Shown here one piece after another: positions 40,306 to 62,712 of a DNA stretch of 64,000 nt (position 1 is its first letter; every line of letters starts with the position of its first letter). Under the pieces are notes generated by a model. That model saw only the letters and a program-made list of their open reading frames with translations. It was not told the origin of the DNA and made no database searches. The translations under genes and the position numbers were made by a program. Source of the stretch: Phycisphaeraceae bacterium D3-23 (GTDB lineage Bacteria > Planctomycetota > Phycisphaerae > Phycisphaerales > Phycisphaeraceae); NCBI GenBank assembly GCA_039555135.1, contig CP114179.1:4464001-4528000 (forward strand). Reading direction: 5' to 3'.

Positions 40306-41409
40306 CTAGTGGATATCGAGGACGGGTTCGCCCAGCACTTCACGCTTCGGCGTGCAGCCAAGCCCCGGCGTCGCGGGCGCAACGATCCGGCCGTTGTCGC
40401 GCTGCGGGGCGTCGTCGGCCAAGCTGACCGTGACGTAGCTGTTGAAGTCGGTCGAGGTAAAACGCAGCGGCTCGGGCGTGCTGTGCGCGAAATGCGCAAT
40501 CGCGGCGGTGACGAGATCGCCGCCCCAGGCGTCTTCGAGCGTCATCGCGATGCCGTGCGTCACACACAGGTCGCGTGCCTGCTTGGCGCGGGTGAGCCCG
40601 CCCAGCTTGCTGATCTTGAGGTTGACGACGTCCATCGCCAGATCACCCAGCGCCTTGCCGAGCATCGCGACACTATCGACACACTCGTCAAGCACGAACG
40701 GCCGATTCGTATGCCGTCGTACCGACAAGCACTCTTCATAACTCAGGCACGGCTGCTCGATGTAAACATCGACGCCGCGCACCGCATCGACCACGCGCAT
40801 CGCCTCGTGCCGAAGCCACCCGGTATTCGCGTCGGCGACGAGTTTTTCGCCGGGTTTCATCTCGGCGGCGACGGCGTGGATGCGTTCGATGTCGGTGTCC
40901 GGGTCGCCGCCGACCTTGAGCTGGAACCGCTCGTAACCCTGCGCCCGGTAGCCCGCGACATTCGCCGCCATGTCGGCGGGGGCTTCCTGCGAGATTGCGC
41001 GGTAGAGCGTGACTGTGTCGCCGTAGCGCCCGCCCAGCAGCGTACAGATCGGCAGCCCGGCGACCTGGCCGAGGATATCCCAGCAGGCGATGTCGATGGG
41101 CGACTTGACGTAAGGGTGGCCCTTGAGCGCGCGGTCCATCGTGCGGTTGAGCTTGCCGAGTTCGCGCGGGTCTTCGCCGATCAGCGAAGGGGCGAGCTCG
41201 GCGATCCCGGCACGCACGCCGCCTGCATACGACGGCAGGTAGGCCGGCCCCAGCGGGCAGACCTCGCCGAAACCCGTGACGCCTTCGTCGGTGTTGATCT
41301 CGACGACGGTCGAGTCGAAGACCTCGACGGACTTGCCGCCCGACCACTTGTAGCTGCCTTCGTGTAGCGGGAGTTCGACCTGGTACGCCTGGATGCCGGT
41401 GATACGCAT
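40306..41409 (-). CDS. Enolase-superfamily protein, candidate cis-3-hydroxyproline dehydratase
   Basis: A 367-residue mandelate racemase/muconate lactonizing-like enzyme. Visible are the lysine pair in QLKVGGD (KxK-like), metal-binding DANTGW, EQPC and DECVDS acids, and the second lysine in LKISKLGG. Enolase-superfamily members in hydroxyproline clusters dehydrate cis-3-hydroxy-L-proline or epimerise proline betaines, so this gene could widen the operon to a second hydroxyproline isomer. That assignment relies on context. The 20-base gap to the epimerase indicates co-transcription. Confidence 0.75.
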
Positions 41410-41450
41410 GCGGTTCTCGAACGGGTGGGTCGCGTGTGTTTGCGGTGTCG

Positions 41451-43037
41451 CTAGGCCGTGACGCCGGCGTCGGCGGTCGTCCATGTGTTATCGACCATGC
41501 GCATCGTGCCTGTCGGGTTTTCGTCCTGGAGCAGCGCAGGCAGACGGTGGGGGCGGACGTTGTCGTAGCAGTGCAGCGCGGCGAATCGGCGGACCGAGGC
41601 GGGGAAGCCCACGGCCGTGAAGCCGGGGTGGCCCGTCGCGGGGTAGGGGCCGCCGTGGTTCTGCGACGCGACGACGGCGACGCCCGTAGGCATCTTGTCG
41701 TTGATGAGTCGGCCCACGCGCTGGCGCAGCGCGGGTTCGATCGTGTCGTAGGCGTCATCATCCGCGCCGTCGTTGGCAGAGTACACGCAACCTGTGAGCT
41801 GGCCTTCGAGCGTCTTGACCACCGCCAATGCTTGCGCGGTATCGTCCACGACGACGACGAGCGAGCTGTTGCCGAAGGCCTCCTGCTGGAGCTGCTTCGC
41901 GTGGTCGAGGAAGGTCTGGCCATCGACGCGCATCAGCGTGTTGGCGACGCTGCAGCCCGTGCCCGCGCCCTTCTTGCCGCCGGTGAGCAGCGTGGCCCCC
42001 GCGTCTTGCAGGGCCTGGATCCCCTTGGCCAGCCCGGTTTCGCCGGCCTCGTTGAGCAGCGTGCCGACCGGCGCCTGCTCGAATTTCTCAACAACGCTAC
42101 TGATGAACGTCTCGGTGTCGTCGCCCTTAAGCGCGACGACTAGGCCCGGGTTCGTGCAGAACTGGCCCACGCCGAGCAGGCACGAGCCGACGAAGTCGTC
42201 GACGATCTCCGCACCGCGTTCGGCGAGCGCCCCGGGCAGCAGCACGACGGGGTTGACCGACGACATCTCGAGGTACGCGAGCTTGCCGTTATCCTCGCAG
42301 GCCTTCTTGAGCGCGAGCCCCGCCTTGCGCGAGCCGGTGTAGCCCAGCGCGGCGTTGCGTTCATCGGCCATGAGGTAGAGCCCGTCATCGTTGCCCATGT
42401 GGTAGACCATCTGCACCAACGCCTTGGGCATATCCGTCGCCTGGATCGCTTCGAGGCAGAGCTCGGCGAGAAGCTGCGTGGTCTTGGGGTGGCTGGGGTG
42501 GGCCTTGGCGATGACGGGGTTGCCCGCGGCGATGGCGGAGGCGAAGTCGCCGCCGGCGATGCCGTTGTAGGCGAACGGGAAGTTGTTGGGGCCGAAGACG
42601 CAGACGACGCCGAGCGCCCCGAGCTTGCTGCGCAGGCCGCTGCCGGTGTCGATCGTGGGCATGGACCACCCGCCGTCGCGTGCGGCGGCGGCGGCCTGCT
42701 GGAGTTGGTTGACGGTACGGGGGATCTCACCGCCGACGAATCGCGTCGGCGCGGGCAGGGCGGTTTCTTCGTTCGCCTTGGCCGCGAGTTTCTCGGCGTT
42801 TTGCTCGATGCGCGATGCGTATGCTTCGAGGAAACCGGCGAGTTTTTCGCCGGGCAGCGAGCGCGAGACTTCGTACGCCTCGCTGGCGGCGGCGAGCGCG
42901 GCGTCCAGGTCGGACCACTTGCTCACGGGGAAGACATCCGGCAGCGGCTCGCGCGTCGCGGGGTTCTTGGCTTGGAAGGTGTCGGCGGCGTCGGCTTGCC
43001 GCCAGTCGCCGGCGATCAGGATGGGTTGGGTGGCCAC
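41451..43037 (-). CDS. Alpha-ketoglutaric semialdehyde dehydrogenase (2,5-dioxovalerate dehydrogenase)
   Basis: Oxidises the semialdehyde end product of hydroxyproline (or pentose) breakdown to 2-oxoglutarate with NAD(P). The 528-residue ALDH starts with GTG at 43037 preceded by AAGGAG; longer extension is not homologous-looking. The catalytic cysteine is in GQFCTNPG near residue 300, and the cofactor-binding [11 protein letters not shown] is near residue 155. The length and the CTNPG motif fit the KGSADH branch of the superfamily. The operon context (deaminase, epimerase) fits a hydroxyproline role. Confidence 0.88.
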
Positions 43038-61555: not shown

Positions 61556-62712
61556 ATGCGACAACGCCCCCAACGGATGTCCGCCGCCCTGCGACGCCGG
61601 CTCGCGCTCGCGGGGTTTGTGATGGGCGGCGTGCTTGCGGTGCTCGTCAACCAGGACGCGACGGGCCAGGCCGAGCAGGAGCCGCCGGTGGTCAACGCAC
61701 AACACGATGGGCCCATTGAGCTGGGCCGGGTCGATTGGATCCGCAACTACGAAGAAGGCGTCGCGCAGGCCGAGGAGACCGGCAAGCCGATGCTATTGCT
61801 GTTCCAAGAGGTGCCCGGGTGACAGGGCTGCCGGGTCTTCGGTTCGGAGACCTTGTCGCACCCCCTGATCGTTGAGGCGGCCGAGGATTTGTTCGTCCCT
61901 GTCGCGATCCACAACAACAAGGACGGCCACGACGGCGAGGTCCGCGAGCGCTTCGACGAGCCCGCGTGGAACTACCCCGTCGCGCTACGTCGATGCGGCG
62001 GGCAGTGACTTCATCGAGCGGCGCGACCGTGTGTACACCGTGCACGCCACGGCTGCACGCATGATCGAGGCGCTCGACGCGGCGGGGCAGGACGTTCCCG
62101 ATTACCTCGACCTGCTCGCGCTGGAACAGTCCGACCAACTCTCCCGCGCGACGTTCGCGATGTTCTGATTCTGGGAAGGCCAGGCCCAGTTGGGCCGGAT
62201 CGAAGGCGTTGTCACCGCCCGCGCCGCTTGGAAGGGCCGCGTCGAAGTCGTCGAACTCACCTTCGACCCGGACATCGTCGGCTACGACGACCTGGTCCGT
62301 GCCGCCGACACGATGGACTGTGCCACGGCCGTGTATACCCACGACGACGAACAGCTCGCTAGCGCCCCGCGCGCGTGTGGGCGAACGCGCGCAACCCATC
62401 GGCGAAGCCAGCGCGGATATCGCAAACACCGACGCCCACCAGTTCCGCCACCTCCGCGCAACACCGATGATCCACCTGCCGCTGACCGAGGCGCAGGCGA
62501 ACAAGGTCAACGCCGCACTACAACAAAACCAAAACCCCTCGATGTGGCTGAGCCCGCTTCAACGGGCGTTGCTCACGAAGATCGAGTCCGCGCTCACCGC
62601 CAATGCCGACGCCCTGGACGGATTGATCTTCCCAAGCGACCCGGCAGCGCTCCGCGGCTACGCCGACCGACTCGACGCAAAGCTCGCCGAGTTCGTCGCG
62701 CCGGGACAGTAA
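61556..62712 (+). CDS. Thioredoxin-like and MsrA-like double selenoprotein (two UGA codons, two frameshifts)
   Basis: Predicted 384-residue exported redox protein. A signal or anchor (residues about 14-36) leads to a thioredoxin-like domain with LLLFQEVPG-U-QGCRVFG, U at residue 89 (UGA 61820-61822). A second domain has ATFAMF-U-FWEGQAQLG, U at residue 204 (UGA 62166-62168), resembling the GCFW active site of methionine sulfoxide reductase A and the later VEVVELTFDPD. The MsrA-like part is short and lacks the usual TGHAE segment. A C-terminal region (about 255-384) follows with no recognised domain. The frame shifts by +1 near 61975-61978 and 62365-62368, both in CCCC runs. Decay, sequencing error or programmed shift are alternatives. 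It lies between zwf and pgl. Confidence 0.72.
61821..61857 (+). promoter_or_regulatory. Candidate SECIS after the first UGA of the double selenoprotein
   Basis: GACAGG pairs with CTTGTC (one G-U) and encloses GTCT/AGAC closing a TCGGTTCGG loop. An apical G is 19 bases after the UGA, within the common bacterial range. Confidence 0.5.
62183..62196 (+). promoter_or_regulatory. Candidate SECIS after the second UGA of the double selenoprotein
   Basis: GGCCC-AGTT-GGGCC, a strong five-base-pair hairpin with its loop G 21 bases after the UGA. Confidence 0.45.

Follow-up and report, generated by a model that had tools for sequence, protein, structure and literature searches.

Selenoproteins with the motif VPGU, formerly listed as hypothetical protein OS_HP5, have been catalogued in a 2026 review as the VPGUxxT family of thioredoxin-like (seleno)proteins, type 2 (NCBIfam NF041383, Trx_VPGUxxT_two), with one selenocysteine (Sec) per protein (PMC13188914, Table 1); a further article cites PMC1976440 for OS_HP5 (PMC9312934). 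As far as the accessible text of the catalogue goes, the great majority of the prokaryotic selenoprotein families that have been catalogued contain one Sec, and among the two-Sec and three-Sec entries of its Table 1 none is, judged by its name, a thioredoxin-MsrA protein (PMC13188914). The MsrA of Clostridium oremlandii occurs naturally as a selenoprotein and belongs to the 1-Cys type; according to the accessible sections of its description, it has no Cys besides the Sec site, needs its helical domain for the active site and is reduced by glutaredoxin, whereas thioredoxin does not reduce it (PMC4479559). In proteins of the PilB type, an attached thioredoxin-like domain is described as recycling MsrA outside the cytoplasm, with electrons arriving via DsbD or CcdA (PMC12288474, in part).

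The gene studied here lies on the forward strand of a 64,000-nucleotide stretch of the genome of Phycisphaeraceae bacterium D3-23 (contig CP114179.1), which as a whole is referred to as the window. The gene starts with an ATG at 61556 and extends, in three pieces, to 62712. The 5' part (61556-61984), read in the first frame, encodes an export- or anchor-like N terminus, hydrophobic over approximately residues 17-31 (15-mer mean 2.47), and a thioredoxin-like domain with a UxxC motif, where the first UGA (61820-61822) can be read from the sequence within VPG-U-QGC. The MsrA-like catalytic part (61986-62363), identified through NF041383 and Pfam PMSR matches, is read in a second frame and contains the second UGA (62166-62168) in the context AMF-U-FWEGQ, followed by the codon for a third conserved Cys (62319-62321; C256 of the protein of the congener G019), which was placed by alignment, its codon being read from the sequence, and is a candidate resolving Cys. 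The C-terminal part, including the stop codon (62374-62712), lies in a third frame and was assigned by its NF041383 match and by the fold of the homologue L051. Comparison with G019 locates the two changes of frame at 61975-61990 and 62360-62375. A preliminary description of this DNA had placed two in-frame UGA codons in one gene, and both TGAs are present in the motifs that it gave; in the window copy, however, they lie in different frames, the first in that of 61556 and the second in another.

All three window pieces match NF041383, in order, with positions 1-88 at 153.7 bits, 92-217 (61986-62360) at 126.9 bits and 234-286 at 37.5 bits; scored apart, each is below the family cut-off of 275 bits because the frame is broken. 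The G019 protein matches the same model over its whole length at 346.7 bits, and it shares with the family the VPG-U/C motif and the order of the domains. The thioredoxin-like half is also related to NCBIfam NF041382 (VPGUxxT type 1; 95.8 bits), though this window match covers the thioredoxin half only and is far under the cut-off of 350. The VPG(U/C) motif of the thioredoxin-like domain reads VPGUQGC in the window and in G019, and residue +3 after Sec is thus Cys, as opposed to the Thr in the name of the family. This residue is Cys in 124 of the 130 aligned rows, Ser in 2, Val in 1 and a gap in 3, with Val in seven more rows, and members with Cys or Val at +3 still score above the NF041383 cut-off. 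The view that the enzyme was not one already described can therefore not be upheld at the level of the family, which is catalogued as NF041383/OS_HP5 with one Sec (PMC13188914, Table 1). The proteins of the window and of G019 differ from the family as listed there by a second Sec in the MsrA-like motif and, as far as our literature searches reach, the double-Sec form is new.

The states of the two sites were followed in a class sample of 397 genomes and a phylum sample of 392, with loci L026, L030 and L031 occurring in both. Members above the NF041383 cut-off were found in 20 genomes of the class sample, where only G019 has two TGAs and where the window copy, being in pieces, scores under the cut-off, and in 31 genomes of the phylum sample, with two TGAs in 15, one in 8 and none in 8. 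Neither TAA nor TAG is present inside the 31 members of the phylum sample; in the class sample, G002 has a TAG. Cys or Sec was found at both sites in 20 of the 20 class-sample members and in 30 of the 30 phylum-sample members having a locus (G587 is without one), that is, in all readable members above the cut-off, so that homologues with neither residue, which the preliminary description had named as a refutation, were not found among them; 46 of these loci were checked by script and L130 was read separately. The second TGA replaces the catalytic Cys within MxU(F/Y)W. Since the alignment rows were picked by the Cys/Sec-aromatic-Trp motif at site 2, the invariance of that site in them is partly due to construction, and it is the set of members above the family cut-off that provides the unpicked check. 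Site 2 was left unread in L065, L101, L120 and L208, the family ORF of L120 having VPGC.

The 132 typed loci, which include duplicates, comprise 95 Cys/Cys, 15 Sec/Cys and 15 Sec/Sec loci (one locus twice) and no Cys/Sec locus, with site 1 unread in 7, the window piece being one of them. There are 16 distinct double-Sec sequences, including that of the window and that of L130, which was missed by the motif search, and all are from Planctomycetota. No double-Sec member was present in a sample of 337 genomes from the phylum of G787, where 8 members were above the cut-off, 2 of them with one TGA, or in a sample of 329 genomes from the phylum of G785, where 15 were above the cut-off, none of them with a TGA. 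A scan of genome contigs with two peptide patterns gave 482 loci, 80 of which were kept (64 Cys/Cys, 8 Sec/Cys, 0 Cys/Sec and 8 others that are incompletely typed or have Ser for the second thioredoxin Cys). As both patterns contain Cys, the scan was unable to find double-Sec members, and their absence from it is no evidence.

The UGAs at 61820-61822 and 62166-62168 almost certainly encode Sec. A genome-wide check for sel genes, as suggested at the outset, found tRNA-Sec (65.3 bits), selA just before it, selB and selD in the organism's own genome, all above their cut-offs. A tRNA-Sec was also found in 15 of 16 double-Sec genomes, in 6 of 8 genomes with one TGA and in 21 of 24 genomes with a TGA-free member, and its presence alone does not separate the states because it is common in the last group too; the genomes without a tRNA-Sec match, G595, G494 and G587, are 77 to 84% complete. 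Within the genus of the window, both the gene and tRNA-Sec were found in G000 and G019 and neither was found in G016, G017 and G018, in a comparison that used the MsrA half for the search and genomes of 70 to 100% completeness.

Further support comes from the RNA downstream of the two codons. The first UGA is followed by a SECIS-like hairpin with the apical loop GUU (61833-61853) and the second by a SECIS-type hairpin (62181-62198) with the apical loop AGUU, which starts 22 nt past the U of the UGA. In a test of the bacterial SECIS position only, with 12 shuffles per row and without the window and L130, the best hairpin at site 2 had a lower energy than the mean of the synonymous shuffles in 14 of 14 UGA rows (mean difference -4.18 kcal/mol) versus 60 of 114 Cys rows (-0.60), and that at site 1 in 27 of 29 UGA rows versus 57 of 94 Cys rows. 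A seven-pair stem after the second UGA has 91.9% of its cells paired in the 16 double-Sec sequences; its covariation score was reached by none of 500 shuffles and its two-sided changes at four of the seven pairs by 10 of 500, and RNAalifold found five of the seven pairs. The innermost pair is kept with Glu-Phe codons in most members and with Arg-Leu or Gln-Leu codons in others. This covariation is the main new evidence for decoding of the second UGA. In addition, 11 of 12 synonymous codons after this UGA are identical between the window and G019, compared with 156 of 253 in the whole gene; after the first UGA the number is 6 of 11, which is no excess over the whole gene for these two copies. 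At site 1, 75.0% of cells pair; none of 500 shuffles attained the covariation score, but 207 of 500 attained the count of pairs changed on both sides, and the structure tested there misfits the window and G019, whose hairpin sits elsewhere. Folds of single 50-nt stretches after the UGAs gave z values of -2.15 for the first UGA of the window and of -0.43, -1.04 and -0.17 for the others, and because such single folds are weak the case for SECIS elements rests on the family tests, the rows of which are related and partly identical. Their weakness outside the first UGA of the window would be in keeping with the UGAs being ordinary stops that resemble Sec positions by chance. We regard this as highly improbable, in view of the Cys or Sec found at the same two positions in the readable members above the cut-off, of TGA being the only stop triplet inside the members on the phylum-sample list, and of the hairpin statistics, the covariation and the complete Sec machinery, which also bear out the initial reading of both UGAs as Sec. 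Outside the window, at G000:C1:3621249-3629622, a selD gene with an in-frame TGA of its own is followed by selB, selA and tRNA-Sec within approximately 8.4 kb.

In G019 the gene is read in a single frame of 386 residues that contains two TGAs and no more, and the order mnmG-zwf-gene-pgl is common to G019 and the window. When 44 G019 ORFs of at least 150 amino acids with an orthologue in the window were compared, only one was split between frames in the window, and this one is itself part of the selenoprotein gene; with the direction of the test turned round, 2 of 44 were split, of which one is the selenoprotein gene and the other an ORF that the window has intact. Indels are therefore not widespread in the window, and its copy of the gene has been disrupted either by recent decay or by a local sequence error. 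In our judgement there is an even chance that the frame changes arose in sequencing or assembly and that the gene in the living cell is intact and encodes both Sec residues, as in G019. Such an error would agree with the intact G019 copy in the same gene order and with the purifying selection on all three pieces, whose dN/dS values relative to G019 (0.23, 0.27 and 0.44, the C-terminal piece being highest) are near those of the neighbours zwf (0.13), mnmG (0.17) and pgl (0.30), from which we conclude that purifying selection acted on the gene over most of the period after the divergence from G019. On the other hand, the remaining 43 G019 ORFs of the comparison are all unbroken in the window, which is less easily reconciled with sequence errors than with the possibility, to which we give somewhat less than even weight, that the copy is a recent pseudogene in which two frameshifts ended the function, leaving the thioredoxin half as the only part that the cell could make. 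The presence of two frame changes in a single gene and the dN/dS of the C-terminal piece, the highest of the three, would fit such a pseudogene as well, but the similarity of the dN/dS values to those of the neighbours, the intact state of both Sec codons and of the second hairpin, and the fact that both frame-change sites are GC-rich with a run of four C speak against it; at GC-rich sites with C runs, sequence errors are common. The functional reading of the window gene rests on its intact homologues. In the same comparison, the window ORF at 40739-41923 on the reverse strand matches G019 in two frames; it is whole in the window, and the G019 counterpart is broken or has an indel.

The preliminary description had also proposed that the protein has two halves, one thioredoxin-like and one MsrA-like, that both are exported, and that the second UGA stands at the catalytic Cys of MsrA. 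The two halves are recovered in the window across the frame break, the 5' piece matching Pfam Thioredoxin_7 at 44.9 bits (gathering threshold 27) and the MsrA-like piece matching Pfam PMSR (PF01625) at 24.5 bits (gathering threshold 23.7), over 30 positions only. They are both present in an AlphaFold2 model of L051, a Cys/Cys homologue from a Phycisphaera sp. whose row is identical to L026, which was computed from a 46-row alignment (pLDDT 90.1, pTM 0.84). Residues 56-177 of this model have a thioredoxin fold (best match 3f9u, Z 16.3; DsbH and DsbD-gamma at Z about 14), and residues 193-342 match C. oremlandii MsrA (4u66) with Z 15.5 over 149 aligned residues at 2.5 A, covering the catalytic as well as the helical domain. 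The window has the Cys/Sec-aromatic-Trp motif and the catalytic Glu, as aligned to MsrA. This Glu, which was not used for picking rows, is found in 128 of the 130 rows, and Cys or Sec together with Trp at site 2 in all 130, which had been picked by that motif; the motif and the homologue states agree with the second UGA being at the catalytic Cys position. By a crude count of 124 rows, 112 carry a hydrophobic segment ahead of the domains and 17 a lipobox-like motif, and along with the N terminus of the window protein this makes it likely that the protein is exported. The term abbreviated MsrA was only partly appropriate, since the loop that lies between the catalytic motif and the catalytic Glu in solved MsrAs is indeed absent from the MsrA half, but a helical C-terminal domain like that of C. 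oremlandii MsrA is present in the L051 model.

C. oremlandii MsrA (4u66, 4lwj) is thus the best match of the MsrA half of L051 and resembles the family in the Sec at the catalytic site, the catalytic Glu and the helical C-terminal domain; the window-family protein differs from it by the fused thioredoxin domain, the shorter loop and the third Cys. PilB of Neisseria and MsrAB1 of Fusobacterium, as far as their descriptions were available, are alike in being exported fusions of a thioredoxin-like domain with MsrA, in which the reductase is recycled by the thioredoxin domain. PilB has an MsrB domain, for which the three window pieces gave no match, the MsrB/A model PRK05550 matching in the MsrA part only. 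The active sites of PilB are Cys. The combination of domains had been put forward as one not known from any described enzyme; thioredoxin-MsrA recycling in cis is known in principle from PilB, there with MsrB, and it is the double-Sec form that is absent from the literature searched.

On the basis of sequence, model and analogy, we consider it probable that the protein is an exported sulfoxide reductase of the MsrA type which is recycled by its own thioredoxin domain and works like PilB without MsrB. The self-recycling reductase suggested in the preliminary description would accordingly be a plausible design, for which the accessible account of PilB-type proteins offers a precedent (PMC12288474). 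We infer the following reaction and order of the relay. As a periplasmic or membrane-anchored two-domain oxidoreductase, the protein would turn the Sec of its MsrA-type domain on a sulfoxide, for which methionine-S-sulfoxide in exported proteins is the most likely candidate. Once oxidised, this Sec would be resolved by the third conserved Cys (C256 in G019) or directly by the thioredoxin-like half, whose UxxC motif (Sec89, Cys92) would regenerate the enzyme in cis and would itself receive electrons from a membrane carrier of the DsbD/CcdA type. It counts against recycling by thioredoxin that the nearest structure, C. oremlandii MsrA, belongs to an enzyme that, in the accessible part of its description, is not reduced by thioredoxin (PMC4479559).

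The substrate may also differ from that of MsrA because the loop between the catalytic motif and the Glu is missing. The double-Sec protein would then not be a methionine sulfoxide reductase at all, and its MsrA-like domain would reduce something else, for instance a peroxide, other sulfoxides, or proteins that are sulfenylated or disulfide-bonded, and would draw its electrons from the thioredoxin half. Such a function could also explain the narrow PMSR match, the score of only 20.1 bits of the window piece with the NCBIfam msrA equivalog TIGR00401 (cut-off 108.1), and the weak metal-binding or HMA-type side matches that the window pieces gave in profile searches. We nevertheless think it unlikely, as the catalytic Glu is near invariant and as the best structural match, which takes in the catalytic domain and the helical one, is an enzyme proven to be an MsrA. 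The surroundings of the gene bear on this question too. An ordinary MsrA or MsrB gene directly adjoins the family gene in 6 of 121 loci, namely a fused MsrB/MsrA in L091 (7020-8075), MsrB and MsrA in L120 (4435-5692), MsrA in L111 (2265-2939), L125 (1877-2578) and L127 (5911-6585) and MsrB in L180 (5446-5814), the 121 loci including duplicates and L111 and L127 sharing a neighbourhood. In L065 an MsrB gene is located farther off, which brings the loci with an Msr gene in the flank to 7 of 121, and no ordinary Msr gene was present in the examined flanks of the other 114. These neighbours would point to methionine sulfoxide as the substrate and do so for a minority of loci. Among the family loci examined there is no generally conserved operon partner, the synteny being local to clades. 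Several of the adjoining Msr genes encode an export-signal-like N terminus.

The reading as a self-recycling sulfoxide reductase also draws on the joint occurrence of Cys92 and the third Cys. In 149 rows, CxxC and the third Cys are both present in 123, CxxC only in 13, neither in 12 and the third Cys without CxxC in 1 (L069), a count that leaves out L037 and L113 (truncated), L204 and L215 (duplicates) and L208 (not extracted). The 12 rows with neither are L217 and L220-L225, which have Val for the second thioredoxin Cys, L109 and L118, which have Ser there, and L038, L040 and L041, in which the thioredoxin motif or domain is gone. The association gives a Fisher p of 3.9e-10, a value that ignores relatedness and in which L041, which has a Cys near the third-Cys column, was set to absent by hand. 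When relatedness is allowed for, there are 4 independent pairs, with 2.4 changing the same way and 0 against (median p 0.5), which is not significant on a quick tree of 133 different rows out of 147 (genomes being duplicated) with weak deep branches. The joint loss is compatible with, but only suggestive of, a relay that has the third Cys as resolving residue for the catalytic one and the thioredoxin pair as reductant. Five Sec-containing rows (L136, L142, L144, L151 and L154) have CxxC without the third Cys. The thioredoxin half is not obligatory, since L040 and L041 consist of the MsrA-like and C-terminal parts without a thioredoxin domain and L038 has lost the thioredoxin motif. In L217 and L220-L225, from the sample of the phylum of G785, the motif is VPGCxTV, the second thioredoxin Cys being replaced by Val, and the third Cys is also gone; these proteins may work by a 1-Cys mechanism.

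We tentatively propose, while giving this proposal somewhat less than an even chance, that in a class of exported, self-recycling sulfoxide reductases of Planctomycetota Sec came to stand at both ends of an intramolecular relay, at the catalytic MsrA site and at the thioredoxin site regenerating it, at least twice independently and, in the cases seen, always together with Sec at the thioredoxin site; the relay would pass through a selenenyl-sulfide or directly through a diselenide between the two domains. In a tree of site states (126 rows, L130 left out; a quick tree with many weak deep branches), double Sec is found in an unstarred group of 14 rows with support 90 (13 Sec/Sec, one Sec/Cys) and a second time in the window and G019, two rows placed within a starred group of 63 that otherwise lacks Sec at site 2. 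The tree requires a minimum of 3 changes at site 2 and of 11 at site 1, and a correlated change to Sec at both sites is represented by two starred independent pairs only. The simplest reading of this distribution is that one and the same residue became Sec more than once, in at least two places; transfer of the gene, or its Sec being lost repeatedly, may also account for it. As no Cys/Sec form is seen among the 132 typed loci, Sec seems to enter the thioredoxin half first. A fusion with Sec in both redox partners, together with single-Sec and all-Cys homologues in several phyla, offers a natural series from Cys/Cys through Sec/Cys to Sec/Sec, which lets one ask what the second selenium adds, and our findings suggest a job, the repair of sulfoxides in exported proteins, for a family still named hypothetical protein. 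In four genomes (G634, G476, G119 and G785), two tRNA-Sec matches above the cut-off were found.
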